64,000 nt of DNA, taken from Chryseobacterium ginsenosidimutans. Lineage in GTDB: Bacteria; Bacteroidota; Bacteroidia; Flavobacteriales; Weeksellaceae. Positions 18,370-63,703 of this stretch are shown piece after piece. Where the stretch lies: NCBI RefSeq assembly GCF_030823405.1, contig NZ_JAUSXC010000001.1, forward strand, positions 2,897,001 to 2,961,000, read 5' to 3'. Numbering within the stretch: position 1 is the stretch's first letter; the number at the start of each line of letters is the position of its first letter. The translations under genes and the position numbers were made by a program. The notes under the pieces are model-generated. The model saw nothing but the letters and a program-made list of their open reading frames with translations. It ran no database searches and was not told the DNA's origin.

Positions 18370-19551
18370 ATGTCAAAACAAGCATATATAGTAAAAGGAT
18401 TTAGAACAGCGGTAGGAAAAGCGCCAAAAGGCACCCTTCGTTTTACTCGTCCCGACGTAATGGCGGCAACTGTAATTGAAAAATTAATGGCTGAACTTCC
18501 GCAATTAGACAAAAATAGAATTGATGACCTTATCGTAGGAAATGCAATGCCGGAAGCTGAACAAGGTTTGAATGTTGCCCGTTTAATTTCTCTTATGGGA
18601 TTAAATACAGACAAAGTTCCCGGAGTTACCGTAAACAGATATTGTGCATCTGGAAGTGAGGCAATTGCAATTGCTTCTGCCAAAATTCAGGCAGGAATGG
18701 CAGATTGTATCATTGCAGGAGGTACAGAATCAATGTCTTACATTCCGATGGGTGGTTACAAACCGGTTCCTGAAACGGAAATTGCAAAAACAAATCCCGA
18801 TTATTATTGGGGAATGGGCTACACTGCGGAAGAAGTCGCGAAACAATTTAATATTACAAGAGAAGAACAAGATCAGTTTGCTTTTGAATCTCATCAAAAA
18901 GCTTTAAGAGCAAATGCTGAAGGTAGATTTGCGAATCAGATTGTTTCTCTTCCGGTAGAATATAATTTCTTGGATGAAAATCAGAAAATGCAGACCAAAA
19001 AGTTTGATTTTTCAGTGGATGAAGGTCCAAGAGCAGATACTTCTTTGGCTGGCTTGGCTAAATTGAGACCTGTTTTCTCCAACGGAGGAAGCGTAACAGC
19101 AGGAAACTCTTCTCAAATGAGTGACGGGGCAGCTTTCGTAATTGTGATGAGCGAAGAAATGGTAAAAGAATTAGGACTGGAGCCTGAAGCAAGATTAGTT
19201 GCTTATGCAGCAGCCGGGCTTGAGCCAAGAATTATGGGAATGGGACCGGTTTATGCGATTCCAAAAGCATTAAAACAGGCAGGTTTAGAATTAAAAGACA
19301 TTGATTTGATTGAATTAAATGAAGCTTTCGCTTCTCAATCTGTTGCTATAAAAAAAGAGCTAAACTTAAATCCGGATATTTTAAATGTAAATGGAGGTGC
19401 TATTGCAATGGGACACCCGCTTGGATGTACCGGAACAAAATTAACCGTTCAGCTTCTTGATGAAATGAGAAAACGTGGAAACAAATACGGAATGGTTTCT
19501 ATGTGTGTAGGAACAGGACAAGGAGCCGCTTCAATCTTTGAATTATTATAA
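18370..19551 (+). CDS. Acetyl-CoA C-acyltransferase (thiolase)
   Basis: A 393-residue thiolase that cleaves 3-ketoacyl-CoA or, in reverse, condenses acetyl-CoA. Catalytic residues are visible: Cys92 in NRYCASG, His349 in AMGHPLGCTG and Cys379 in MCVGTGQG. It is the third gene of the MarR-controlled operon, 83 nt after the fusion enzyme. As the only thiolase seen in the window, it could also supply acetoacetyl-CoA to the PHA operon at 34-38 kb (inference). Confidence 0.94.
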   Translation: MSKQAYIVKGFRTAVGKAPKGTLRFTRPDVMAATVIEKLMAELPQLDKNRIDDLIVGNAMPEAEQGLNVARLISLMGLNTDKVPGVTVNRYCASGSEAIAIASAKIQAGMADCIIAGGTESMSYIPMGGYKPVPETEIAKTNPDYYWGMGYTAEEVAKQFNITREEQDQFAFESHQKALRANAEGRFANQIVSLPVEYNFLDENQKMQTKKFDFSVDEGPRADTSLAGLAKLRPVFSNGGSVTAGNSSQMSDGAAFVIVMSEEMVKELGLEPEARLVAYAAAGLEPRIMGMGPVYAIPKALKQAGLELKDIDLIELNEAFASQSVAIKKELNLNPDILNVNGGAIAMGHPLGCTGTKLTVQLLDEMRKRGNKYGMVSMCVGTGQGAASIFELL

Positions 19552-29997: not shown

Positions 29998-30768
29998 ATG
30001 AAATATAAACTACTTCTTTTTCTCTCCATTATTTTATTCTTGATCAATTGTTCCTGTAAGAAGAATATTAGTCAACATGGTAAATATGAAGTAAAAGTGG
30101 ATACTTTAACGATGTTTGATAAAACAAGAAACCGCAAAGTTCCAATTGCTTTTTTCAGCCCGAAAACTAATAAGAAAATTATCAAACAGCAAGTTGTGAT
30201 TTTCAGTCATGGCTATGGAGCGAATAAAGGCGGAGATTATATGATTTATTCTTATTTAACAAAAGATTTAGCTTTAAGAGGTTATTTTGTTGTAAGTATT
30301 CAGCATGAACTTCCTACTGATGAATTGATTCCAACAGAAGGGAAACCCCAGATTGTAAGAATGCCTTTTTGGGAACGTGGCGCAGAAAATATTCTATTTG
30401 TTTTAAATGAATTGGAAAAGATAAAACCCGAGCTTGATTATAAGCATTTAACCCTAATCGGACATTCGAACGGCGCTGACATGACTGCTCTTTTTGCCAA
30501 TAAGTATCCTAATCTTGTCTATAAAATTATTACTATGGATAACCGAAGAATGTATCTTCCAAGAACTTCTGTTCCTAAAATTTACACTTTACGATCCAAT
30601 GATTATCCTGCTGATGAAGGTGTTTTACCAACTGCTGAAGAACAAAAAAGATTCAATATTACGGTTCAGGCTACCAATATTAACCATGGAAAAATGGACG
30701 ATAAAGGAAATGATACAGAAAAAAATACATTGATTTTCTTTATTGAAAGATATTTAAACGAAAAATAG
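29998..30768 (+). CDS. Alpha/beta-hydrolase lipoprotein
   Basis: A 256-residue secreted hydrolase. The signal ends FLINC, giving Cys18 as the likely lipidated residue. The fold shows SHGYGANKGG near residue 70 (oxyanion loop), the nucleophile elbow GHSNGADM, and a late NHGKM that could hold the catalytic His. Relatives act as acyl or carbohydrate esterases or platelet-activating-factor acetylhydrolase-like enzymes; the substrate is not evident. It has its own terminator-separated position after uvrA. Confidence 0.82.
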   Translation: MKYKLLLFLSIILFLINCSCKKNISQHGKYEVKVDTLTMFDKTRNRKVPIAFFSPKTNKKIIKQQVVIFSHGYGANKGGDYMIYSYLTKDLALRGYFVVSIQHELPTDELIPTEGKPQIVRMPFWERGAENILFVLNELEKIKPELDYKHLTLIGHSNGADMTALFANKYPNLVYKIITMDNRRMYLPRTSVPKIYTLRSNDYPADEGVLPTAEEQKRFNITVQATNINHGKMDDKGNDTEKNTLIFFIERYLNEK

Positions 30769-30827
30769 CGCTTTAAAGTTATCCACAAAAAATTGTTAGT
30801 AACTTGTGAATTTTAACATTTAATTTA

Positions 30828-30857
30828 TTGCAAATAAGAAATTTATTCCTACATTTA
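30828..30857 (+). promoter_or_regulatory. Promoter of a small transcript
   Basis: TTG (30828-30830), a 19-bp spacer and TACATTTA (30850-30857), one base off the TAnnTTTG consensus, 19 nt before a 19-codon frame. Confidence 0.5.
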
Positions 30858-30876
30858 CTATGTAATAAATCTGAAA

Positions 30877-30936
30877 ATGAATTCAATTTTTGCTTTTTTC
30901 AGCTTTGAAATTGCAATTAAATTTATAAAAATTTAA
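30877..30936 (+). CDS. Candidate 19-residue hydrophobic peptide
   Basis: An ATG-to-TAA frame encodes a 19-residue, Phe/Ile-rich peptide (MNSIFAFFSFEIAIKFIKI) that could insert in a membrane. It has its own promoter-like sequence upstream and its stop codon runs straight into a strong terminator, giving a predicted RNA of about 100 nt. It could be a small membrane peptide, a type I toxin-like peptide or simply a small RNA. No antitoxin RNA was identified. Confidence 0.4.
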   Translation: MNSIFAFFSFEIAIKFIKI

Positions 30937-30966
30937 GCACAGCATTGTCGGCTGTGCTTTTTTATT
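30935..30966 (+). terminator. Terminator of the small transcript
   Basis: A 9-bp stem, AAGCACAGC (30935-30943) with GCTGTGCTT (30951-30959), and a T-run. It overlaps the stop codon of the 19-codon frame. Confidence 0.85.
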
Positions 30967-31078
30967 GTTGTCTAATTAAAAAAATGAGATGTATTTATCT
31001 ACTGAATCCGTTCCTAAAGAGCGGATTCTTTCATCTCTTTTTCCTTTAATTATTTCCAAAATTAATAACTTTGAATAA

Positions 31079-31150
31079 GGTCTCATAGTTCAATGGATAG
31101 AATAGAAGTTTCCTAAACTTTAGATCCAAGTTCGATTCTTGGTGAGACCA
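31079..31150 (+). tRNA. tRNA-Arg (anticodon CCT)
   Basis: A 72-nt cloverleaf: acceptor stem GGTCTCA (31079-31085) with TGAGACC (31143-31149), discriminator A31150, the TTCGATT T-loop, and an anticodon loop TTCCTAA with CCT at 31112-31114, which reads AGG. The CCA end is not fully encoded (only CA follows). It marks the left border of the accessory block with the PHA operon. Confidence 0.93.
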
Positions 31151-31330
31151 CATGACAGAAGTTATGGGATTCCTTCAGGAGTTCTATTTTATTTACTTTT
31201 TAATCATTCTTAATCAGTAAAAAAAGAGTACGGATAAAAAAATACAGTAGAAACCTTAATGTTAGCATTGACCTTTTTTATAGTGGAACATCTATTGCTG
31301 ATTTGATTGATAATTTATGATACATCTATT

Positions 31331-32107
31331 ATGAAAATAGCAACATACAATGTCAATGGAATTAATAGCCGCCTGCCGGTCCTTCTGAAATGGTTGCAAA
31401 ACGCAGAGCCTGATATCGTGTGCCTTCAGGAATTAAAGGCACCACAAGAAAAATTTCCGATTGATGAAATTAATAAGGCAGGCTATGAGGCAATATGGCA
31501 CGGACAGAAGCAATGGAACGGAATAGCAATCCTGTCCAAAGGTTTTGAAATGACAGAGGTTCAGCGTTCGCTGCCTGGTAATGAGGATGATAACCAAAGT
31601 CGCTATCTGGAAGTTATCATTGACCAGATAGTGATCTGCTGTCTGTATCTTCCCAATGGAAACCCATATCCGGGACCAAAGTTCGATTATAAAATGGAAT
31701 GGATTAAACATTTTAAAAAGAGAACAAAACAATTGATCGATATGGATCTACCAGCAATACTGATAGGTGATTTTAATATTATTCCTACTGAAAAAGATGT
31801 TTATAAGCCTGAAAGATGGAAAGATGATGCACTCTTTCAACCGGAAGTCAGAAAAGCGTACAGCCAGCTCTTGAAAAACGGGTGGACAGATGCCATCCGT
31901 ACTTTATTTCCTGAAGAAACCATATATACATTTTGGGATTACCTGTACAAAGCCTACGACAGAAATGCAGGAATAAGGCTTGATCACATTTTGCTGAGTC
32001 CCTATTTGAGATCACAACTGATGAGGGGCGGTGTCGATAAAGAAGTCCGCGGCTGGCCAAAAAGCAGTGACCATGCGCCTGTTTGGGTCGAGCTCGATAG
32101 AAAATAA
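31331..32107 (+). CDS. xth: Exodeoxyribonuclease III
   Basis: An AP endonuclease/3'-exonuclease of base excision repair. The 258-residue product has Asn7 in YNVNG, Glu34 in CLQELK, GDFN with Asp147 and Asn149, and the catalytic SDHAP with His248; positions agree closely with E. coli ExoIII. The start was set at the ATG at 31331, since the family begins MKIATYNVNG; eight upstream codons were dropped. It follows the tRNA and may be an additional copy carried by the accessory block (inference). Confidence 0.94.
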   Translation: MKIATYNVNGINSRLPVLLKWLQNAEPDIVCLQELKAPQEKFPIDEINKAGYEAIWHGQKQWNGIAILSKGFEMTEVQRSLPGNEDDNQSRYLEVIIDQIVICCLYLPNGNPYPGPKFDYKMEWIKHFKKRTKQLIDMDLPAILIGDFNIIPTEKDVYKPERWKDDALFQPEVRKAYSQLLKNGWTDAIRTLFPEETIYTFWDYLYKAYDRNAGIRLDHILLSPYLRSQLMRGGVDKEVRGWPKSSDHAPVWVELDRK

Positions 32108-32410
32108 TTAGATTTAAACTTGCTGAAAGGAAAGTGAATTTACAACAAATGAACTTCATCTAGACAATATGATATTTCTTCGGATAATCAAAAAAGCAGT
32201 ACACCTAATGTACTGCTCCTTTTACTATTGGCCAACCATAGAAATGTTCTCTTCTAAAAGGGTTCTCTGCAAATCCAACGATGTACGGATAAGAATTGTT
32301 TAAAAAGTAATCGAAAACATCACCGGATAGCACCCTCTTTTTCTTTAAAAAAAGAAGAGAAATCTTCTGAAGATTGACAACCTAGATATTGTACTGATTT
32401 AGAAAAACAC
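32108..32410. other. Intergenic gap between xth and the cyanophycinase gene
   Basis: This 303-bp gap between convergent genes holds the hairpin at 32195-32217. Nothing else was recognised. Confidence 0.5.
32195..32217 (+). terminator. Terminator after xth
   Basis: A 9-bp stem AGCAGTACA (32195-32203) with TGTACTGCT (32209-32217) and a 5-nt loop, followed by a moderately T-rich tail and preceded by an A-run, so it may serve both convergent transcripts. Confidence 0.6.
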
Positions 32411-33256
32411 TTAATGAGTATTCTGATTGCAGCCTTGTATTTTTCCTGTATTTAGATCTACACTGCAGTTTTCAGTCAGAATGTGAACTGTCAGATTTTC
32501 AGCGTATACAGCAACACCCTTTTTTACGGTCTTTACATTTGTTTGACTGACGTTCTTCGCACTGATCATTACTATCATTCCTGAACCTTTACAAACCGCC
32601 TTATTCTCATCTATCAATAAAGCCGTATCCTCACCAAGACCGACACCATGTATTTGCTGATGAAGCAAAATAGCATGAGCAAGTCTGCCAAACCTGCCAC
32701 GATGAACAAAGTGCGTATCTACAATGAGATCATTAAGAAGACCCAGCCCGGAAGTAAAATCTATATCATTCTCTACCATTGCCTCACCATTCTCTGCCTC
32801 ACAGATAACGATCTCAGGCATACACATAGCCCCTGCACTGGTTCCGGCAATGAGAAAGCCTTTCTCATTCTGATATTTTTCTTTCAGCAAATGCCGAATG
32901 TCTGAATTCCCCAGATATTTACATATCCTGTTTTGGTCACCACCTGTAAAGAAGACTGTTTTTGCTTTCGACAGCCTTTCTAAGTAATGATCTTTAGTGG
33001 TTGATTCATCAATAGTATGTAAAAATCCAAAATTAGTGTAGCCAATCTCAGCAAATGTTTTTTGGTAAGTATCACGCATACTTTCAGGTTCTGAGCTTGC
33101 TGCTGTAATTACTTCTATCCGGTCATCTTTGGATTCTGCCAATAGTTTGAGAATTTCATTGGGTGAAAAATCACGGTTGCTTTCCTTCATTTCAACTTTA
33201 TTATCAGCTCGGTCTTCATTTCCGCCAATAATTAATAGTTTGCCTCTTGGAGTCAT
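32411..33256 (-). CDS. Cyanophycinase (peptidase S51 family)
   Basis: A serine exopeptidase predicted to cut cyanophycin (multi-L-arginyl-poly-L-aspartate) into Asp-Arg dipeptides. The 281-residue product (start at 33256, MTPRGKLLIIGG; the 19 upstream codons do not fit the family) has GGDQ (105-108), the nucleophile GTSAGA with Ser140, DTHFVHRGRFGRL from residue 180 and GLGEDTA further on, all typical of CphB. No signal peptide. No cyanophycin synthetase gene is in the window, so it may act on imported or foreign cyanophycin or on other beta-Asp peptides. Confidence 0.88.
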   Translation of the reverse strand: MTPRGKLLIIGGNEDRADNKVEMKESNRDFSPNEILKLLAESKDDRIEVITAASSEPESMRDTYQKTFAEIGYTNFGFLHTIDESTTKDHYLERLSKAKTVFFTGGDQNRICKYLGNSDIRHLLKEKYQNEKGFLIAGTSAGAMCMPEIVICEAENGEAMVENDIDFTSGLGLLNDLIVDTHFVHRGRFGRLAHAILLHQQIHGVGLGEDTALLIDENKAVCKGSGMIVMISAKNVSQTNVKTVKKGVAVYAENLTVHILTENCSVDLNTGKIQGCNQNTH

Positions 33257-33372
33257 AAAACAATCTTTTTTTTTTATTATATTATTGTACTTTATTAAAA
33301 GCATATCAATCAATGCTTATTTCGAAATTATATCAAAAAAAATAAAAAAATTATGAGGCCAGTCATACCTTT

Positions 33373-34008
33373 TTAAGATTTGGTTTCTGCTATATCAAGT
33401 AACGAATCAGTAAAAATTTTCCATTGAATTTTTGACAGACCGGCTATAGCTAATAATGCTGTAAACATATTTTTAATCTTATTTAAAAAGTGGGTACTTA
33501 GATTTGCAGTTTCATTTCTGCCATATACTGCAACTGTTATTTTTCTTCCGTGTCTGGAAATCATAAATGTTGATGTAGAATGTTTGCTGTAGAAATGCTC
33601 TATACGCTTATGCTTATCATCAGGCTTATAAGAAGGTTTAAAAACGATAAATATATTTTGAGTATCAGCAGAATTCTCAACAGTAAGATCCTGTATTGTA
33701 ACCCAAAAATAAGGAGTGCCGAGATCAGGACATCCTTTGATATTGATTCTGACGAAGTCTCCTTTTTCAGGGTTACGAAAAGCCTGTTTACCTTTACAAT
33801 CAAAAAGTTTAAAATCTGCAAATGTATATTCACTATAAGATGCCCACTCATGGATCCGAAGAAATTTATCTTTAATAATGTCATAAACTTCTAAAGCAAT
33901 ACCGGCCGTCTCAAAGTATTTTATACTTTCAGTATCATGGAACGCACCTTTTCTTTGTTTAGGAACTCCCTGTACGTTTTTAGCTTTTGGAAATATGTAT
34001 CGTAACAT
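33373..34008 (-). CDS. Unrecognised 211-residue protein next to the PHA operon
   Basis: I do not recognise a family. The start was set at the ATG at 34008 (MLRYIFPKAKN); the longer frame to 34212 adds an unconvincing low-complexity N-terminus. The protein is soluble except for a short hydrophobic stretch near the C-terminus (MFTALLAIAGL), which could bind a lipid or granule surface. A central part with FVRINIKGCPDLGTPYFWV looks like a beta-rich domain. It is divergent from phaE, so the two may share the control region; a granule-associated role is only a guess. Confidence 0.65.
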   Translation of the reverse strand: MLRYIFPKAKNVQGVPKQRKGAFHDTESIKYFETAGIALEVYDIIKDKFLRIHEWASYSEYTFADFKLFDCKGKQAFRNPEKGDFVRINIKGCPDLGTPYFWVTIQDLTVENSADTQNIFIVFKPSYKPDDKHKRIEHFYSKHSTSTFMISRHGRKITVAVYGRNETANLSTHFLNKIKNMFTALLAIAGLSKIQWKIFTDSLLDIAETKS

Positions 34009-34248
34009 CAAAAATAAAAACCAAATTAAGATGAATTCCACAGAACATTTATGATGTAAATCAGATATCCTGTCAAAGTCGAAACTGATTAAATAACTAA
34101 ATAAAAACCGTCTAATCTCAAACGGTCTATTCTTAGAGAAACCAATTAGAAGCAGCTTCCCTTTTACAATATTTATACTAATCAACATGGTTTTTAGCAA
34201 ATTATGCCACATATGACCCTTGTCATAATTATTCTTCCTTTGAGCTGA

Positions 34249-34256
34249 TATCTTTG
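34249..34256 (+). promoter_or_regulatory. -7 box of the pha operon
   Basis: TATCTTTG matches TAnnTTTG exactly, 43 nt before the phaE ATG. The intergenic region (34009-34299) separates phaE from the divergent 211-residue gene. A fitting -33 element was not found. Confidence 0.45.
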
Positions 34257-34299
34257 ATTCAAACCTTTTTATATTCTTAAATATTATAAATTAATACAT

Positions 34300-35409
34300 A
34301 TGAAACAGTCTACAATTTTTGACACGTGGTATAGCAATTCCACCGAAATGATGAATAATTGGCACAAAATGACCGAGAAAATCAACACAGACCAAAAGCC
34401 ATTATGGGACGATGCCAGAAATATACAAAAGAAATGGATAGAGGATTTTCAGAAGATGATTCAAAATATGCAGAATCCGTTTATGCCAGGGGGAAAATCA
34501 GGCTTCAGCCAAAATACAATGAAAGATGTTTTTGAGAATATGCTTAACAGCACCGATATGTACATCAGGCTGTATAAGCTATGGCAACCTGTTTTTGACG
34601 CAATGGAAAATAATACTTTCCATCAGCAAGACTTATGGAAACTGATAGACCCTCACAGTTTTAAGGAATTTGTAGACAGGTTTTTTGGCTATGCAGGTTT
34701 TAACCCTATGAAAGATTTTATTGATCGGTCAAACCAGCTCATGAAGCAGTGGTTTGATTCTGCCGGAGACACAGGCAAAGGTTTTTCAAAGATGTTTAAC
34801 AACAATCCTTTTAGCAATTTCTTCGCCAATAGTAATTCAGAAAGCATGTTTAACCTTTACATGGAAATGCTACGAAGCGGTCAGAGAAGCTTTTCCACGT
34901 TTTTTGGCAATGGTTTATTCGGCAGTTCAGACAACTATTTTGATTCCATGGCAGAAATGATGGAAGTATGGACAGAATATGTGTCTAAAGGGAACCAAAT
35001 GCAGGAGATGATCTACAAGGTCAGCACTGCTGCATGGGAAAAAGTAATGGAATCCATAAATGACAAGGTGAAAGATGGTACATCCGTTAATGACTTTAAA
35101 GAGTTCTACAATGAGTGGTCAGCAATAAATGAAAAAGAATTTGTGGAGTTGTTCAATACCGATGAGTATGCAACATTGCAGGCTGATTTAATTAAGCTGA
35201 ATTCCAGACTGAACACGATGTATGAAAAGCAGATAGAAGATTTAATGAAACCCTTTCCTATAGTCCATAAGTCACAATTGGAAGGTCTGTATGAAGTAAA
35301 CCATGAGCTTCGTACAAAGCTTAACAACCTGGAGCGCCTGGTGGAAGAACTCCGGAATACTGTCAGCACAAATACCCAAACGGAAGATAATAAAACTGAA
35401 ACTAACTGA
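34300..35409 (+). CDS. phaE: Class III PHA synthase subunit PhaE
   Basis: A 369-residue protein that partners PhaC in class III polyhydroxyalkanoate synthases. It is rich in Met, Phe, Trp and Asn and mostly helical (DTWYSNSTEMMNNW at the start, PHSFKEFVDRFFGYAGFNP near residue 112), and ends in a predicted coiled coil (about residues 327-355). The identification rests on this composition and on its position directly before phaC, to which it is joined by a TGATG overlap. PhaE subunits are normally of this length. Confidence 0.87.
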   Translation: MKQSTIFDTWYSNSTEMMNNWHKMTEKINTDQKPLWDDARNIQKKWIEDFQKMIQNMQNPFMPGGKSGFSQNTMKDVFENMLNSTDMYIRLYKLWQPVFDAMENNTFHQQDLWKLIDPHSFKEFVDRFFGYAGFNPMKDFIDRSNQLMKQWFDSAGDTGKGFSKMFNNNPFSNFFANSNSESMFNLYMEMLRSGQRSFSTFFGNGLFGSSDNYFDSMAEMMEVWTEYVSKGNQMQEMIYKVSTAAWEKVMESINDKVKDGTSVNDFKEFYNEWSAINEKEFVELFNTDEYATLQADLIKLNSRLNTMYEKQIEDLMKPFPIVHKSQLEGLYEVNHELRTKLNNLERLVEELRNTVSTNTQTEDNKTETN

Positions 35410-36467
35410 TGTACAATTCAATATCATTTAATGTTTTGGAAGAATTTGCAGGGATTTCATCTAACCTTGTGAAAGGATTAGAAAAGCTTAAACAAATCGA
35501 ACCCGTAATGGTTGGGGAAACCCCAAAACATTCGGTATGGAAAAGAGATAAAGTGAAGCTATTTAGATACACAAGAAATACACCTCCAGGCATAAGTACA
35601 CCGATTCTGATAGTGTACGCACTGGTGAACAGGAATGACATGATGGACCTTCAGGAGGATCGAAGCTTTATTCGGAATCTTCAGGCTGACGGAGCTGATA
35701 TTTATATCCTTGATTGGGGATACGCATCACCGGAAGATAAATATTTTACCATGGATGAATATATAAACGGCTATATAAATGATGCTGTTGATGAAATACG
35801 GAAACAGTCAGGTCAGCAAAAGATTACTGTAATGGGAGTATGTCAGGGCGGAACTTTCAGTGTGATATATGCTGCATTACATCCGGAAAAAATAAAAAAT
35901 CTGATCACGCTGGTCACCCCAGTTGATTTTTCTCCTTCCGGAAATATGCTTTCCAGATGGGCAAAAGATCTTGATGTAGATGCATTGGTTGATAGCCATG
36001 GTATTGTACCGGGCGAGTTCCTGAATGCCGGCTTTGAGAAGCTTAAGCCAATGTTGAAAACAAGCAAGTATATATCTATTCTCAACTCGTTAGATCAAGA
36101 AGAGCAGCTTCTTAACTTTCTGCGAATGGAGAAATGGATCGCTGACAGCCCTCATCAGGCAGGAGACTGCTTCAGGCAATTTGTCAAAGATCTGTACCAA
36201 CAAAATAAACTTATAAAAGGAACTTTGGTGGTTGGAGACAAGTGTGTTAACCTGGCGGATATCACCATGCCTTTGCTCAACATCTATGCTGAGCAGGATC
36301 ATCTGGTGCCTCCTCAGGCTTCAATACCGCTTAATGAACTAGTGGGTAGCACCGATAAAAGCGTAATAAATTTTTCAGGAGGACATATAGGGGTCTTTGT
36401 AGGCAGTAAGTCTCAAAAGGAATTGGCCCCGGGTATAGCAGCCTGGCTAAAAGAAAGAGATAACTGA
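35409..36467 (+). CDS. phaC: Class III PHA synthase catalytic subunit PhaC
   Basis: Polymerises (R)-3-hydroxyacyl-CoA into PHA on the granule surface. The 352-residue alpha/beta-hydrolase-fold enzyme has the lipase-like box GVCQGG with Cys145, Asp297 (AEQDHLV) and His326 (SGGHIG). The spacings Cys-Asp 152 and Asp-His 29 agree with the Allochromatium vinosum enzyme (149/302/331). LDWGYASPEDKYFTMDEYI is also typical. The start overlaps the phaE stop by one base, and its own stop overlaps the next gene in the same way. Confidence 0.94.
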   Translation: MYNSISFNVLEEFAGISSNLVKGLEKLKQIEPVMVGETPKHSVWKRDKVKLFRYTRNTPPGISTPILIVYALVNRNDMMDLQEDRSFIRNLQADGADIYILDWGYASPEDKYFTMDEYINGYINDAVDEIRKQSGQQKITVMGVCQGGTFSVIYAALHPEKIKNLITLVTPVDFSPSGNMLSRWAKDLDVDALVDSHGIVPGEFLNAGFEKLKPMLKTSKYISILNSLDQEEQLLNFLRMEKWIADSPHQAGDCFRQFVKDLYQQNKLIKGTLVVGDKCVNLADITMPLLNIYAEQDHLVPPQASIPLNELVGSTDKSVINFSGGHIGVFVGSKSQKELAPGIAAWLKERDN

Positions 36468-37444
36468 TGCTTGAATTTATAAATACTATAAAATATTTTT
36501 GGTTTCCCGGTAGTGGAACTAGCACAAAAATGCCATTATTGGAGAAAGAGCTGGGAGAAAAGATTTCCTATTCTTCAACGATTCGCTTTGTTAAAGTGCA
36601 TGGTGATATTAATATAGCTTATATTGATGATGGTAAAAAAGATGCAGAAGTTTTAGTGTTTATACACGGTATGGGCGGGGCAATCCCTACATGGAGGAAA
36701 AACATCTCATTTCTGAGGACACAATATCGCTGCATCGCAATTGATTTGCCAGGTCATGGATATTCTTCTAAAGATGAATATCCTTTCACAATGGCTTTTT
36801 ACACCGATATCCTATTATCCTTTCTGGGCAAACTGGGACTGCACGATGTGACTCTTATCGGCCATTCAATGGGAGGTCAGATAGCAACTCTAGCTGCTAT
36901 AAAGCAGCAGGATAAGGTGGCTAAACTCATCCTTGTTTCACCTTCGGGGTTTGAGCCTTATACTGCGGTTGAGAAGCAAATGCTGATCAATCTACAGTTG
37001 GGCGTTACAGCGAGTGCACAGGCCTTTACAATGCATAAACTCAATTATTTAATTGGTTTCTGTAACGACCATAAGATGGCTGCTGACATTTTAAAACGCC
37101 TGCCTGTTTTTCAGGAAGAGTCCTATATTTTCGGAAAAGTGATGCTGCGGTCTATGGAAAGTATGTTGCTGGAATCAGTTTATAGGAAACTAAATAAAGT
37201 TACGGTTCCTTGCCTGGTGCTGGCGGGAAAAGACGATAAAGTTAGCCCTTATTCTTATCTGCGTAGTGAAGAATATTATGAGATTGTGAGCAGAAAATCA
37301 CGACAGCTTCAAAAAGGAAGAACCGTCGTCTTTGAGCCCGGATGTCATTTTATTCAATATCAAAGACCCAAAACGTTCAATTCAATTGTAGTGAATTTCC
37401 TACAGGAAAATGATAATAATGATACTGATAAAATTAAACCTTAA
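36467..37444 (+). CDS. Alpha/beta hydrolase in the PHA operon
   Basis: A 325-residue hydrolase translationally coupled to phaC (TGATG). Motifs are FIHGMGG (oxyanion), DLPGHGYS, GHSMGG with Ser134, Asp256 or Asp257 in AGKDDKV, and His294 in PGCHF. No signal peptide is seen, so it should be cytoplasmic. Its place between phaC and phaB suggests an intracellular PHA depolymerase, oligomer hydrolase or acyl-CoA thioesterase. Sequence alone does not choose between these. Confidence 0.85.
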   Translation: MLEFINTIKYFWFPGSGTSTKMPLLEKELGEKISYSSTIRFVKVHGDINIAYIDDGKKDAEVLVFIHGMGGAIPTWRKNISFLRTQYRCIAIDLPGHGYSSKDEYPFTMAFYTDILLSFLGKLGLHDVTLIGHSMGGQIATLAAIKQQDKVAKLILVSPSGFEPYTAVEKQMLINLQLGVTASAQAFTMHKLNYLIGFCNDHKMAADILKRLPVFQEESYIFGKVMLRSMESMLLESVYRKLNKVTVPCLVLAGKDDKVSPYSYLRSEEYYEIVSRKSRQLQKGRTVVFEPGCHFIQYQRPKTFNSIVVNFLQENDNNDTDKIKP

Positions 37445-37447
37445 GTC

Positions 37448-38188
37448 ATGGAGAGAAAAAAAGTTGCTTTAATAACAGGAAGTACAGGAGGTATTGGTAC
37501 AGCGTTATGTAAAAGGCTGAACCAGGAAGGCTATATTGTAGTTGGAAACTCACGATGTAATGATAAAGCTCTGGCTACAAAAAATGCGCTAAAGCTTCAG
37601 GGATGTAATATTCATATGGTTCAGGGCGATGTATCAGACTTTGAATCAGTAGCAAGGATGATTAAAAGTATTGAAAGAGATATTGGGCCAATTGATATAC
37701 TAATCAACAACGCCGGGATTACCAGGGATGCCCGATTTACCAAAATGAACAAAGAAGATTGGGATGAAGTGATGAATATCAATCTGACAGGTGTGTTCAA
37801 CTGTACACGACAAGTTATTGACAGTATGATAGAGCGTGGTTATGGAAGGATTATCAATATATCTTCAGTAAATGGTCAGAAAGGTCAGTTCGGGCAAACC
37901 AACTATTCTGCAGCCAAAGCAGGACTTCATGGTTTTACTAAATCATTAGCTCTTGAAGTCGCAAAACATGGGATTACAGTCAACACTATTTCTCCGGGAT
38001 ACATTGGGACCGAGATGGTAATGGCAGTGCCTGAAAAATTGCGGGAGCAGATAGTTGCACAAATTCCTGTCGGCAGGCTGGGTCATATCGAAGAAGTAGC
38101 CGAGGCAGTCGTATATCTCATATCCGACCAGAGTAGCTTTATGACAGGCTCTAACCTTAGCATTAATGGTGGGCAGCATATGTATTAG
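37448..38188 (+). CDS. phaB: Acetoacetyl-CoA reductase PhaB (SDR family)
   Basis: Reduces acetoacetyl-CoA to (R)-3-hydroxybutyryl-CoA, normally with NADPH. The 246-residue SDR has the cofactor motif TGSTGGIG (10-17), NNAG (87-90), Ser139/140, Tyr153 and Lys157 (YSAAK), and PhaB-like segments GITRDARFTKM and NTISPGYIGTEMV. FabG is the main alternative, but the operon context with phaEC favours PhaB. It starts 3 nt after the hydrolase gene and ends the operon. Confidence 0.9.
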   Translation: MERKKVALITGSTGGIGTALCKRLNQEGYIVVGNSRCNDKALATKNALKLQGCNIHMVQGDVSDFESVARMIKSIERDIGPIDILINNAGITRDARFTKMNKEDWDEVMNINLTGVFNCTRQVIDSMIERGYGRIINISSVNGQKGQFGQTNYSAAKAGLHGFTKSLALEVAKHGITVNTISPGYIGTEMVMAVPEKLREQIVAQIPVGRLGHIEEVAEAVVYLISDQSSFMTGSNLSINGGQHMY

Positions 38189-38785
38189 AAAGATTCAAGA
38201 TTTGCTTAGCTCTGTTTTTTTGACAATTTCCTGTAGAAAAAATTCAATAAAATATTCTGCATTTTGAAGATTTTATAATATTTTTCTTACATATAGTTGC
38301 ACGGACTACAAAGTCCTAAACATTGTGAGCTTGAAAAATTCAATTAGTATTTCTTCTTGTTTAAAAACAACTTTAAATTCAAACAAAATAAACCCTCGTA
38401 AATTTGTGAGGGTTTATTATCAGCTTTTTTATTAAATATGGTATTCTCTTTTACAAAGTCTATATCTGTGGAATTTGCAACTAACTAATCTACATTGGAT
38501 CCATCCACTAGATCAACTTCGGCTTTTTCTCTTTTGACAATAATCTCTCTTATCTTGGTAAAAAATCGGAAATTCTATAATAAATAACAAACTATTCAAC
38601 TGTTCTTTACTGCTTTGATCCGGAATATAGAGAAGCTTTAAAGGAAAGATTTTGTAACGATTATTGATTCATAAAATTATTTTAGAATAATCTTAAACAT
38701 GCACAACCTTAAAAATTACGATACATAGAATTGTCAACTAAAAATAACCTTTCAATTGATTTTATTGCTGTCACTTTTTATAAAA
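38189..38785. other. 597-bp gap after the PHA operon
   Basis: AT-rich, with no convincing frame. It contains the terminator at 38387-38418 and nothing else I can identify. It is the right border of the accessory block; no copy of the tRNA-Arg 3' end was found in it. Confidence 0.5.
38387..38418. terminator. Terminator after phaB (possibly bidirectional)
   Basis: An 11-bp perfect stem, AATAAACCCTC (38387-38397) with GAGGGTTTATT (38408-38418), and a 10-nt loop. It lies 198 nt downstream of phaB. Confidence 0.7.
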
Positions 38786-39412
38786 TTAATTTGTTAGCGC
38801 TATATATTGATAAAGAAACTTTTGATTTTCTGCTTCATCAACTAAGAAATTGGCCACATCAAATCTTGATATCTTTCCCACATTCATTCCTTTCTGAAGT
38901 CCGGATATTACTTTATAAGATGAGGTTGCGCCTCCGTTGGTAAGCATTCCTGGTCTTATGATTTCCCATTTTAAATTACTTTTGGTGATCAGTTCTTCCA
39001 TTTCCGTTTTATTGATGTATTGATCTTTCAGAAATAATGATATGACCGTTCGCATAAAAAAACTTAGATAATTTTTACTTTCTCCCGCCCCAAAACCGGT
39101 GATGACCAAAATAGGTGAAGAAAAATTAAGTTCATCAGTAACATTGATGAGGGTTTTGGCAATATCAGAAAAAAGAGTTGTTGCTTTTTTATTTTTTGTT
39201 CCAACAGTTATCAAAACCGCATCATTACCTTCTATTGCTTTTTTTAAGTCAGTTGGTGAGGTTGCACTTCCATTTATTTTAATGAGATTGGGATGGTCTG
39301 TAATATGATTCGTGTTTGTAGACAATGCCGTTACTTTATATCCTTTTTCTAGGGCTTGATGTACACATTCTAATCCAATTCCCGCTCCGGCTCCTATGAT
39401 AGCTATATTCAT
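38786..39412 (-). CDS. NAD(P)-binding protein (NmrA/atypical SDR-like)
   Basis: A 208-residue Rossmann-fold protein. The cofactor motif IIGAGAGIGLE opens the protein when the start is set at the ATG at 39412; the longer frame adds 31 unrelated codons. Further fold elements are NGSATSPTDLKKAIEGNDAV and LKWEIIRPGML. Relatives act as isomerases, reductases or redox sensors. It starts one base after the stop of the inositol-phosphatase-like gene, so the two are coupled. Confidence 0.82.
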   Translation of the reverse strand: MNIAIIGAGAGIGLECVHQALEKGYKVTALSTNTNHITDHPNLIKINGSATSPTDLKKAIEGNDAVLITVGTKNKKATTLFSDIAKTLINVTDELNFSSPILVITGFGAGESKNYLSFFMRTVISLFLKDQYINKTEMEELITKSNLKWEIIRPGMLTNGGATSSYKVISGLQKGMNVGKISRFDVANFLVDEAENQKFLYQYIALTN

Positions 39413-39413
39413 T

Positions 39414-40220
39414 TTATTTTGTGGATTTAATTTGCAAATATTTTTCAGTAATACTTTTTTGTGCGACCAAAAGGCTTTCACTTCCCCATTTCCAAGGTTT
39501 ACCATCGGTTGTTAAAATTGCAGCTCCTGCTTCTCTGGCTATAAGTAATCCAGCGATCCAATTAAATGTATCGAGATCATCCTGGACAAACAGGTCAATT
39601 CTTCCGGCACCTACATAAGCCAATTGCAATCCGTGAGGACCATAGTTTCTTACAATTCCGAAATTATCCAATAGTTTAGTAACCGTGGAACCAATTTTTT
39701 TATTCAAATCAATATTGGATTTGTCCTGATGACCATACTCGAAAACACTCAGCATTACTGCTAAATCGGTTTTATGACTTATTTTTAATTCTTTACCATT
39801 CATAAAAGCGCCTTCACCATCTTTAGCCCAAAACATTTCGTTAGCCAACGGATCATAAATAACAGAGAAAAAAGGTTTTCCATCATAAATAAGGGCTAGA
39901 TTGATCGTCCATCCCGGAATATGCTGAAGATATTGTATGGCGCCATCCATTGCATCGCACAGCCAATATGCGTGTTGCCCGGCGGGATTTCTTTGTGAAT
40001 CGGTATTGAACTCGTCGCCAATATGCCAAGGAATATTTGGAAATTCAGGAAATAAATCTTCTTTCAAAGAAGTCAGACACAAGATATCGATATCTTCTAA
40101 TTGTCTTAAAAGTTCATCCATACTTTGTGGTATGGCATTTTGTTTATAGTTTTTTAAAAAGACATCTCCCACTTTTCTTACTGCGTCAAGTACGATGGGA
40201 ATATTGATTTCGTTTTGCAT
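39414..40220 (-). CDS. Inositol monophosphatase-family protein, variant active site
   Basis: A 268-residue protein of the Mg-dependent sugar phosphatase fold. The usual DPLDGT motif reads DAMDGA, and the late WDxAAG motif reads FNWIAG, so an Asp metal ligand appears to be Asn. The second half keeps the LIAREAGAAI pattern. Activity may be changed or lost, or the substrate may differ; similar variants exist in other bacteria. It lies 60 nt downstream of the AraC-type gene and one base upstream of the NAD(P)-binding gene, suggesting one operon. Confidence 0.8.
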   Translation of the reverse strand: MQNEINIPIVLDAVRKVGDVFLKNYKQNAIPQSMDELLRQLEDIDILCLTSLKEDLFPEFPNIPWHIGDEFNTDSQRNPAGQHAYWLCDAMDGAIQYLQHIPGWTINLALIYDGKPFFSVIYDPLANEMFWAKDGEGAFMNGKELKISHKTDLAVMLSVFEYGHQDKSNIDLNKKIGSTVTKLLDNFGIVRNYGPHGLQLAYVGAGRIDLFVQDDLDTFNWIAGLLIAREAGAAILTTDGKPWKWGSESLLVAQKSITEKYLQIKSTK

Positions 40221-40280
40221 TTCAATTATTGTATTAATTACAATGCAAATCTACTTACAGGATTGCCGTTAATGATAGTT

Positions 40281-41198
40281 TCAATAAAGGGAAGAATAGT
40301 CTTGATCACGGAATTTCTTCCGAAATTCGAGAGGAGTAAGTTTTGTTATTTTTTTAAACAGTTTTCCAAAATAAACAGGCTCATCGTAACCTACTTCATA
40401 AGCAATTTCTTTAACTGTTTGTTCTGTAAAATAAAGCAATCTTTTGGCTTCCATAATCGATGCTTCCTGGATATGAGTGGAAACCGGACTTCCTGTTAAT
40501 GATTTCACAGTGTCATTTAAATGAGCGGTAGAGATAGAAAGTGCAGAAGCATATTGTGCGGGCTGCTTCCAGATTTTGAAATGTTCTTTAATAAGTTTTA
40601 TGAAGTTTTCCTTAATGATAATACTTCGGTTTTCTTTCTCTTTTATGGTGGGCAAATTGGCAACCAATTCCCCTCCAATTAAACTCAAAAGTCCATTTAA
40701 TAAAGAATTAATGCTTTTTTGAAGATATTGATTGCTTTTTTGTAATTGTACTTTTTCAATTAAACCCATTAGGATAATGATTTGCTGAAAAAAAACAGAT
40801 TCTTGCTGTAGTAAAAAAGGATTATCAAATTTATTTTCTAAAAGCTGCAGCACTTCTTTATTGAGCAGTGAACTATCAAAGCTTATCATCCATCCTTTTG
40901 GATCTTTTACTTCTATGACATAATGTACGGCTTCCGGAAATACACAAACTAATGCAGGAGCAGTAAACTCAATGATTTCAAAATCAATACTTAACCTAAA
41001 TTCACCTTTTACGGCTAACATCAATTGACAGTGATTATCACGGTGTGGTTTTGAAACATCATGTTCTTCAGCTTCCTGATTTTCCATATTGACAATTAAA
41101 ATTCCTGCCTTTGCTTGCGGCGAAAGTTGAAATTGTTTAATACTATGTTTTTTATTTTTCAAGATTGATAAATGTAGAACTATCTTTACTAATTGCAA
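40281..41198 (-). CDS. AraC-family transcriptional regulator
   Basis: A 305-residue regulator: an N-terminal cupin-like sensing domain (HRDNHCQLMLAVKGEF, then FTAPALVCVFPEAVHY) and a C-terminal pair of helix-turn-helix motifs (YASALSISTAHLNDTVKSLTG and VKEIAYEVGYDEPVYFGKLFKK). It probably controls the two genes downstream on the same strand (inference). The ligand is unknown. Confidence 0.88.
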   Translation of the reverse strand: MQLVKIVLHLSILKNKKHSIKQFQLSPQAKAGILIVNMENQEAEEHDVSKPHRDNHCQLMLAVKGEFRLSIDFEIIEFTAPALVCVFPEAVHYVIEVKDPKGWMISFDSSLLNKEVLQLLENKFDNPFLLQQESVFFQQIIILMGLIEKVQLQKSNQYLQKSINSLLNGLLSLIGGELVANLPTIKEKENRSIIIKENFIKLIKEHFKIWKQPAQYASALSISTAHLNDTVKSLTGSPVSTHIQEASIMEAKRLLYFTEQTVKEIAYEVGYDEPVYFGKLFKKITKLTPLEFRKKFRDQDYSSLY

Positions 41199-41370
41199 AA
41201 TGGATAATAGAAAATCTCAAATTTTAGTAAAAATTATATAGATGCTGATACAATAATGGAATGAGAATATCACTAACTATTAATCATATACTCCTAGCGG
41301 AAATTGTAAATGTATCAAAACAAAAAACCGAATCTTTAAAAAGAAAATACTAAATATTCCGTTTAATTCT

Positions 41371-41378
41371 TAAATTTG
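41371..41378 (+). promoter_or_regulatory. -7 box directly before a lipoprotein gene
   Basis: TAAATTTG matches the consensus exactly and ends 4 nt before the ATG at 41383, the same close spacing as at cmk. A leaderless transcript is likely if this box is used. Confidence 0.45.
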
Positions 41379-41382
41379 GTCA

Positions 41383-41826
41383 ATGCAAAAGAATCTTTAT
41401 CTCATCATTATATTATTTTCTCTTACCAGTTGCTATACTTACCAGGTGAAAAAACCAGTGAATCCAGCAACCGACAATAAGAAAAAGGGTGAAGCAGTTG
41501 TTAATAATGCTTCCACAGCTGAATCCAAAAACGTGAACTCACAACAAACGCCTATTCCGATCAATATTCAAGAGAAACTTGCACCTAATAAAAATTTTAA
41601 AATCAACGCTGAAGGTAAGTCTTATAAAATAATAGTTGACAGGTGGGAAGGCGACAGTCTGGTTGCACACCCGACTCATAATCCTAAAAAAATTCTGAAA
41701 TTCCATAAGAACCAGATCAATGGCGAGAAAATTGCGGAAAAACGCTTTTCACAACCCATAGCTGATATTATCACTATTACTGCTTATGCCGGAATTGGTG
41801 TTTTAATCTGGTCTCTTGTACGCTAA
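41383..41826 (+). CDS. Small lipoprotein, function unknown
   Basis: A 147-residue lipoprotein (signal ending SLTSC, Cys17), followed by a Lys/Asn/Ala-rich linker to about residue 60, a small beta-rich domain with NAEGKSYKIIVDRWEGDSLV, and a C-terminal membrane-like segment (ADIITITAYAGIGVLIWSL). I do not recognise a named family. The start cannot be moved downstream without losing the lipoprotein signal. Confidence 0.7.
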   Translation: MQKNLYLIIILFSLTSCYTYQVKKPVNPATDNKKKGEAVVNNASTAESKNVNSQQTPIPINIQEKLAPNKNFKINAEGKSYKIIVDRWEGDSLVAHPTHNPKKILKFHKNQINGEKIAEKRFSQPIADIITITAYAGIGVLIWSLVR

Positions 41827-42016
41827 TTTTTAACTTTTGTAGTAATTATAGAAATATTTTATTCTTAAAAATTCATAATCACCTTAGTGTAAAGCAATAC
41901 ATTTTAGTCTATCTTTTTTCTTAACCTCTCAATATTATCCCTTTATATTGTTTATTTGTGTATATTGGATAGATCTTTTTTAGTAAAAACATTTTAAAAC
42001 CAAACACCATATTTTT

Positions 42017-42193
42017 ATGAAAAATCTAAAAAACCTATCACACAAGTTCACAAAAAGAGAACTGAAAAAAATTTTTGGAGGAAATGGTCCTATTTTATCC
42101 CATCCGATGTGTACACCAATACAATGCGAGAATCTTGAGACCAGATGTGACCGTCTTAATAGCTGTCCTCCACTCTACCCTGAGCCAATTTAA
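42017..42193 (+). CDS. Double-glycine leader peptide (bacteriocin-like), 58 residues
   Basis: A small gene with leader MKNLKNLSHKFTKRELKKIF ending in Gly21-Gly22, the pattern recognised by peptidase-containing ABC exporters. The predicted mature part (residues 23-58) has four Cys at 32, 37, 44 and 50, which could form two disulfides, and is Pro-rich at its end. Chryseobacterium genomes carry many such short GG-leader peptides. No exporter or modifying enzyme is nearby, so any export machinery is encoded elsewhere. An AT-rich leader precedes it; no confident promoter was found. Confidence 0.72.
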   Translation: MKNLKNLSHKFTKRELKKIFGGNGPILSHPMCTPIQCENLETRCDRLNSCPPLYPEPI

Positions 42194-42354
42194 CATACAA
42201 TACTGTTTAACGGAGAAATGTATCGCCGCAAAATAATAACCTTATGAGCGGGTGTTTTTATGCAATAAACCGGAAGTATGCCACTGATTTAAGTTAAGAC
42301 AATAAGGAAAAGAGAGCCAAAATGTTGAAAATCAGCATGCTGAGAGGTATTCTC

Positions 42355-62659: not shown

Positions 62660-63703
62660 TTATTTTTTATCGACTACAATTCTTTCCGGTCTGTTTGCTA
62701 TTTCCCATGCAGTTGTAAAAACAAGCTGCGCTCTTTTTGCTAACAGATTATAATCTATTTTTTCTACATCATCCGTTGGTTTATGATAATCTTCATGAAT
62801 TCCATCAAAGAAAAATGCAACAGGAATGTTATGTTTAGCAAAATTGTAATGATCTGATCTGTAATACAGTCTCTCTGTGTCATTAGGATCATCATATCTA
62901 TAATTCAATTCTAAATTATTTGTTCTCTTATTGGCTGTTTCATTAATTACTTTTAATTGTGAGCTTAACATTTCAGAACCAATAACATAAACATATTGTT
63001 TACCTCTGTTTTCAGGATCATCCCGGCCAATCATATCAATATTTAAATCCACCACAGTATTTGCCAATGGAAAAACAGGATTGTCGGTATAATATTCAGA
63101 ACCAAATAATCCGTGTTCTTCGCCGGTTACATGAAGAAATAAGATCGATCTTTTTGGGCCTTTTCCTGCTTTTTTAGCACTTTGAAAGGCTTTTGCGATT
63201 TCCATTACAGCAACCGTACCGCTTCCGTCATCGTCTGCACCGTTGTAAACAACCCCATTTCTTGTCCCAACATGGTCGTAATGCCCGGAAATAACCACAA
63301 TTTCTTCAGGCTTTTCAGATCCTTCGATAAAGGCAAGAATATTTTCAGAATCAGGAAGATTTCCACCGCCTCTTTTTTTCATAAAGTCTGCCGGAACCTT
63401 CTGATAATAAGAACCCAGAGCTTTTGGAAAAGAAATTCCTAAATTTTTATAATAATTAACCATATATACTCCAGCCTTCTTTTGTCCCGGGCTTCCTGTA
63501 TCTCTTCCTTCCATTTCATCAGAAGCAATTACATATAAGTTTTTCTTTAGATCATCTGCACTAATCTCCTTATAAGCAGAAACAAACGCTTTATCACCCT
63601 TTACACCGGACGAAGTTGAAGATGCCGCATCAGTAGAAATTTTTGCTGTTCCACAACTTACCAATACAGCAATTGAAAATAGTGGAATAAATAGTTTTTT
63701 CAT
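62660..63703 (-). CDS. M28-family metallopeptidase lipoprotein
   Basis: A 347-residue secreted aminopeptidase-like enzyme with a lipoprotein signal ending AVLVSC (Cys17). Zinc ligands can be read at His141 (SGHYDHVG), Asp157/158 (NGADDDGSG), Glu195/196 (TGEEHGLFG), the Asp in NIDMIGRD and the His in RSDHYNF. It should act in the periplasm or on the cell surface. It has the standard layout of flavobacterial M28 lipoproteins. Confidence 0.92.
   Translation of the reverse strand: MKKLFIPLFSIAVLVSCGTAKISTDAASSTSSGVKGDKAFVSAYKEISADDLKKNLYVIASDEMEGRDTGSPGQKKAGVYMVNYYKNLGISFPKALGSYYQKVPADFMKKRGGGNLPDSENILAFIEGSEKPEEIVVISGHYDHVGTRNGVVYNGADDDGSGTVAVMEIAKAFQSAKKAGKGPKRSILFLHVTGEEHGLFGSEYYTDNPVFPLANTVVDLNIDMIGRDDPENRGKQYVYVIGSEMLSSQLKVINETANKRTNNLELNYRYDDPNDTERLYYRSDHYNFAKHNIPVAFFFDGIHEDYHKPTDDVEKIDYNLLAKRAQLVFTTAWEIANRPERIVVDKK

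Follow-up and report, generated by a model that had tools for sequence, protein, structure and literature searches.

A 64,000-nucleotide stretch of the Chryseobacterium ginsenosidimutans genome (contig NZ_JAUSXC010000001.1, positions 2,897,001 to 2,961,000; hereafter the window, numbered from its first base) carries a class III polyhydroxyalkanoate (PHA) operon of four genes on the forward strand. The first, phaE (34300..35409), encodes the 369-amino-acid partner subunit of the synthase, and the second, phaC (35409..36467), its 352-amino-acid catalytic subunit with Cys145, Asp297 and His326. They are followed by a gene for an alpha/beta hydrolase that has Ser134, Asp257 and His294 and resembles poly-3-hydroxybutyrate (PHB) depolymerases (36467..37444), and by phaB, the gene for acetoacetyl-CoA reductase (37448..38188). 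All four reading frames are intact and tightly coupled. As an earlier note on this DNA had described, TGATG overlaps join phaE to phaC (35407-35411) and phaC to the hydrolase gene (36465-36469), and a 3-nt gap precedes phaB. Judged by its sequence, the class III operon is real and undamaged, a known kind of enzyme system in an unusual host.

Enzyme families

Families were assigned with Pfam and NCBIfam (TIGR and NF) models at their curated cut-offs. PhaC scores 461.3 bits against the class III model TIGR01836 (cut-off 365.3), which bears out the class proposed in the earlier note; the class I and class II models give 131.4 and 50.8 bits, far under their cut-offs. Cys145, Asp297 and His326, the catalytic residues that the note had picked out, are present and are invariant in 91 of 91 aligned rows, the window row included. 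The corresponding residues of the Allochromatium enzyme are Cys149, Asp302 and His331, as given in the available part of PMC6403647. The note's statement that the spacing is the same holds for Asp to His, which are 29 residues apart in both proteins, and is off by one for Cys to Asp, where the window protein is shorter (152 versus 153).

The phaE gene adjoins phaC, as expected of a class III synthase, and its product exceeds PF09712 (71.6 bits, cut-off 25.7). The same protein falls under the stricter cut-off of TIGR01834 (48.3 versus 154.95 bits), a model that all 13 PhaE rows scanned match at an E value of 0.001 or better. PhaB exceeds TIGR01829 (365.9 bits, cut-off 302.1) and lies under the narrower equivalog model NF042966 (214.8 versus 436). 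Within the operon, to which the look for phasins was confined, no gene matches a phasin model.

The two-subunit synthase with PhaE and the Cys/Asp/His triad are shared with the class III operons of the Allochromatium vinosum type, as these are described in the part of PMC6403647 available. In contrast to that type, the window operon has the order phaE-phaC-hydrolase-phaB with no phaA, includes a serine hydrolase, and encodes a PhaE that is under the NCBIfam cut-off. The Allochromatium cluster presumably has phaA, phaB and phaP nearby. The description of the window operon as complete is an overstatement: the synthase pair and the reductase gene are present, but the thiolase gene (phaA) is not in the operon.

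Distribution and phylogeny of PhaC

Distribution was counted in draws from the genus, the family, the phylum and Dyadobacter rather than from the named-genome scan described below. The draws used one genome per species, the genome searches covered class III only, and a class III PhaC was a protein over the TIGR01836 cut-off. The earlier note had set its suggestion of lateral gain against a PhaC present in most Chryseobacterium genomes; we found one in a single genome of 173, the window's own. Some match to a PhaC model at an E value of 0.001 occurs in 157 of these 173 genomes, the window's own among them, and all the others are under the cut-off and are probably ordinary alpha/beta hydrolases. 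The family draw shares genomes with the genus set; it gave one holder among 296 genomes (1 of 33 genera), and the phylum draw gave eight among 395 (4 of 170 genera). Two of 48 Dyadobacter genomes have the gene.

In the note's further view, PHA production is not a standard trait of this group; phaC in Chryseobacterium had, though, already been noted to some extent. According to the available part of PMC9003127, UniProt holds phaC entries for Chryseobacterium, and the whole genus was counted as potential PHA accumulators. Set against 172 of 173 genomes without a class III PhaC over the cut-off, this is a caution for microbial ecology. Other reports, each available in part, concern the wider phylum. 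Class III PhaC was listed for 13 Bacteroidetes genomes, with the class presumed to be more subject to horizontal transfer (PMC8312272); PHA synthase genes were low or absent in most seaweed-degrading Bacteroidetes, with two PhaC genes in Flavobacteriaceae (PMC9676036); and 27% of polar Bacteroidetes isolates scored PHA-positive, with a warning of false positives (PMC7464897). We found no published description of a phaE-phaC-hydrolase-phaB cassette in the titles and openings of abstracts among the papers listed, with subscription literature mostly outside reach.

These counts could also mean that the family has long inherited the operon vertically and that nearly all other lineages have lost it. 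The place of the window PhaC within Bacteroidota rows and the eight holders in the phylum draw are consistent with this. However, a PhaC over the cut-off is lacking in all 172 other genus genomes and in all 295 other genomes drawn from the family, and in the phylum draw the only other holder of the class, G335, has a PhaC of a different subgroup. Very many losses would be needed. We regard vertical possession as improbable.

A scan of named genomes, from which the best 80 loci were kept (L021-L100), places the window PhaC among relatives; the identities that follow are those among the matches listed. The best is Dyadobacter sp. CY323 at 66%, followed from 62% down by PhaCs of metagenome-assembled genomes (MAGs) titled Bacteroidia and Bacteroidetes; PhaCs of Nitrospirae, Gallionellaceae and Nitrosomonadales MAGs have 54-58%. 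Of 92 PhaC rows, 65 went into a careful tree; the other 27 were dropped by hand as near neighbours, in a quick tree, of rows that were kept. In the careful tree two Dyadobacter PhaCs are the sisters of the window PhaC (support 100/99), and all three lie inside a Bacteroidota group (98/90) that takes in every row titled Bacteroidota, plus L038 and L069, whose titles name another phylum or none. The quick tree, with 91 rows and one Dyadobacter, has the same sister (100) and the same group (94).

The 54-58% PhaCs could point instead to a gain straight from Proteobacteria or Nitrospirota. They group apart, however, and the window PhaC stands with Bacteroidota and Dyadobacter at the support just given, which makes such a gain very improbable; a proteobacterial origin, taken alone, is rejected on the 65-row tree. 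The comparison with Bacteroidota and Proteobacteria that the earlier note had called for thus places the nearest kin in Bacteroidota, with no need for transfer from Proteobacteria. A plasmid origin was also considered and rejected: 55 plasmid records match PhaC at an E value of 1e-60, all at less than 60% identity, and 32 of them are from Rhizobium. A virus-borne copy was rejected as well, since none of three pattern matches in viral contigs encodes a relative.

The four-gene block and its site

Both Dyadobacter holders, CY323 (L021) and a second genome (G719, locus L124), show the order phaE-phaC-hydrolase-phaB as well. It is missing from the remaining 79 named loci (L022-L100), not all of which are complete. 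The Dyadobacter cassettes have the same four genes, order and tight coupling as the window operon and carry the sisters of its PhaC, but differ from it in protein sequence (identities of 40% for PhaE, 66% for PhaC, 45-47% for the hydrolase and 70% for both PhaB copies) and in their flanks, which are unrelated in each genome. The two Dyadobacter loci share a single DNA match of 3,933 columns at 74.6% identity, which starts 48 bases ahead of phaE and stops where phaB ends. No further DNA match was found between them in 18 and 20 kb, and no flanking open reading frame (ORF) of one matches the other at an E value of 1e-6. Neither Dyadobacter flank has a gene in common with the window beyond weak ATPase and short-chain dehydrogenase/reductase (SDR) family matches. 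Because the flanks are unmatched among all three, the cassette sits in three unrelated places and, on this comparison, looks like a transferred unit. UvrA, taken as a yardstick, is 57-58% identical between the window and Dyadobacter, less than PhaC and PhaB.

The site in the window is itself variable. Relatives share the gene order uvrA, esterase, tRNA-Arg, variable stretch and M28 peptidase. The left edge is a tRNA-Arg gene (CCT anticodon, 31079..31151, forward strand, found with ARAGORN) and the right edge an M28 peptidase gene (62660..63703, reverse strand). Among 11 fetched uvrA stretches of relatives, the same tRNA occurs in eight, the peptidase gene in the same orientation beyond uvrA in six, and both in four; in five the peptidase gene was unseen within about 20 kb. 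Where relatives have both, these two genes are 9.9-11.6 kb apart (four genomes), versus 31.5 kb in the window; of two relatives without the tRNA, one has the peptidase gene 4.4 kb from the esterase gene and the other has it 5.2 kb from uvrA. Neither phaC nor phaE was seen in any of the 11 stretches. Among the genus relatives compared, the interval between tRNA-Arg and the peptidase gene varies in content, as expected of a genomic island at a tRNA.

Base composition differs as well. Third-codon-position G+C is 0.457 in phaE (z 6.5), 0.385 in phaC, 0.353 in the hydrolase gene and 0.356 in phaB, against a mean of 0.274 (standard deviation 0.028) in 18 hand-picked window genes before 31 kb. Such a difference could also come from an assembly error or contamination. 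This we consider extremely improbable: the assembly consists of a single contig (4,296,724 bases; 99.89% complete, 0.24% contamination), and genes that match genus relatives (uvrA and the M28 peptidase gene) lie within 25 kb of the operon on both sides.

The tree, the third-position G+C, the variable site and the portable four-gene block all favour the lateral gain that the earlier note had proposed. Very probably, the operon, most likely one for PHB, entered this lineage as a single block, from a different bacterium of the Bacteroidota, and settled in the variable region beside tRNA-Arg. This reading draws on families, intact triads, gene coupling, distribution, tree and portable block, all taken from sequence, and from these we infer the donor as well. 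The operon would then be a self-contained example of one sampled species gaining a storage-polymer trait.

Several observations weigh against lateral entry in this form. At the site, no exact empty counterpart was found among the relatives, and the operon's neighbours are themselves variable. No integrase was seen among the island proteins scanned with Pfam, which were part of the ORFs, and no bounding repeat in the repeat search, which covered 30700-42300. Several other genes of the insert are also raised in third-position G+C. The one relative in which the site may have been filled differently (G018, described below) is a single case among nine stretches. In the tree, seven rows from genomes of the same phylum fall outside the Bacteroidota group, and a 10.5-kb stretch labelled as a Chryseobacterium gleum MAG (L060) has a PhaC of 57% identity; this PhaC groups in the 65-row tree with those of MAGs labelled Chitinophaga and Flavobacteriia, and from its position the label looks wrong. 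In the genus, family and phylum draws, only the best few first-look candidates of each genome were scored. The pattern seen in the Dyadobacter pair could also have come from rearrangement within that genus. The UvrA comparison relies on one protein only, and PhaE and the hydrolase are less alike between the window and Dyadobacter than UvrA is. Finally, a PhaC identity of 66% is, read as divergence, a sign of an old common ancestor of the cassettes, and because that ancestor is old, the donor would be unsampled and Dyadobacter may be a co-recipient.

The stretch from tRNA-Arg to the peptidase gene (31079-63703) holds mixed genes, including those for a manganese catalase and a DUF2383 protein. 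It is a mosaic: an exonuclease gene (31331-32107) and a block at 38771-41215 are found at other sites in relatives. The block consists of genes for an SDR, an inositol-monophosphatase-like protein and an AraC protein, and occurs as a unit at 75-87% DNA identity in nine other genomes of the genus. Five of these nine stretches have no other window gene beyond weak SDR and AraC family matches, and the other four (G134, G018, G086 and G090) have one other window piece. In G018 (L140, 8876-17043), the block and a cyanophycinase gene (61% identical) stand 5 kb apart in the order and orientation of the window, and unrelated genes lie between them where the window has the PHA operon. As a comparison of gene order, this arrangement is suggestive of a site filled differently.

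The hydrolase and a possible storage role

The hydrolase that recurs as a partner is the sole fresh element of the operon; the synthase system itself is of a known kind. The protein exceeds PF00561 (102.7 bits, cut-off 25.8), and its Ser134/Asp257/His294 triad is invariant in 12 of 12 aligned sequences. A hydrolase of this family lies near phaC in nine of the 79 other named loci, downstream within 2.4 kb in eight and upstream in one, and a clear score gap sets these matches (112-157 bits) off from the rest (51 or less).

Its likeness to intracellular short-chain-length PHA depolymerases (NF050089) and to the PHB depolymerases 8ynv and 8ynw lies in the Ser/Asp/His triad and in the matches of the family profile to the PDB, where these two structures rank first (125.9 and 123.0 bits; the next scores 115.9). 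Their best stretch of match is in the first half of the profile, at positions 8-146 of 292. In contrast, 8ynv ranks only 14th when the window sequence is searched alone, and the protein is under the depolymerase models NF050089 (70.3 versus 300) and TIGR02240 (39.3 versus 250.6). All 25 NCBIfam models listed for it are under their cut-offs, with generic best matches. Because the leading profile matches are PHB depolymerases, but the single sequence and the models fall short, we judge the chances that the hydrolase is depolymerase-like to be about evenly balanced. The phaC-linked hydrolase is nonetheless a concrete candidate PHB depolymerase of Bacteroidota.

The gene content suggests how the operon could act. 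Four thiolases over cut-off are encoded in the genome outside the operon, one of them inside the window (18370-19551) beside fadB-like and acyl-CoA-dehydrogenase-like genes; by family, these enzymes could supply acetoacetyl-CoA. A housekeeping thiolase would thus form acetoacetyl-CoA, PhaB would convert it to (R)-3-hydroxybutyryl-CoA, and the PhaE-PhaC complex would polymerise the latter via the thiol of Cys145. The co-encoded serine hydrolase would probably attack the polymer or its oligomers when carbon is needed. We infer the activity, the polymer and the hydrolase substrate from these assignments, and a make-and-break role for the cassette is plausible. A broader and more doubtful possibility is that a portable PHA cassette for making and breaking the polymer circulates in Bacteroidota. 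Its single 3.9-kb unit would combine the two synthase subunits and the reductase with a dedicated depolymerase from a new family, and in any host that has a thiolase it would make a PHA accumulator of a non-producer.

Alternatively, the genes may be intact and serve something other than PHA storage: they could be silent, or their product could be a different polyester or oligomers of short length, and the hydrolase might cleave chains or thioesters. The sub-cut-off scores of PhaE against its NCBIfam model and of the hydrolase against all those listed are compatible with this, as are the false Nile red signals described as common in Bacteroidota in the available part of PMC7464897. The four intact and tightly coupled frames, the invariant catalytic residues and a PhaB over its subfamily cut-off argue against it, and we consider this alternative unlikely.

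Other features lie close to the operon. Between phaB and the convergent SDR gene, an inverted repeat at 38387..38418 (AATAAACCCTCGTAAA/TTTGTGAGGGTTTATT) is a possible terminator; the repeat is absent from the list of a scan for sigma-70 promoters and terminators, which found no more sites than in shuffled sequences and was left unused. A 15-nt, 87% repeat of a piece internal to the tRNA, at 31674-31688, is likely a chance match. Directly before the operon, an ORF of 279 amino acids on the reverse strand (33373-34212) has no Pfam or NCBIfam match at an E value of 0.001; several relatives have DNA 66-69% identical to a part of it (33740-33969). A single ORF separates phaE from a cyanophycinase gene (32411-33256, reverse strand; TIGR02069, 181.1 bits, cut-off 126.6). 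The same genome encodes two cyanophycin synthetases over cut-off (genome positions 2562423-2565011 and 2099313-2101583), and, going by its genes, may make two storage polymers.

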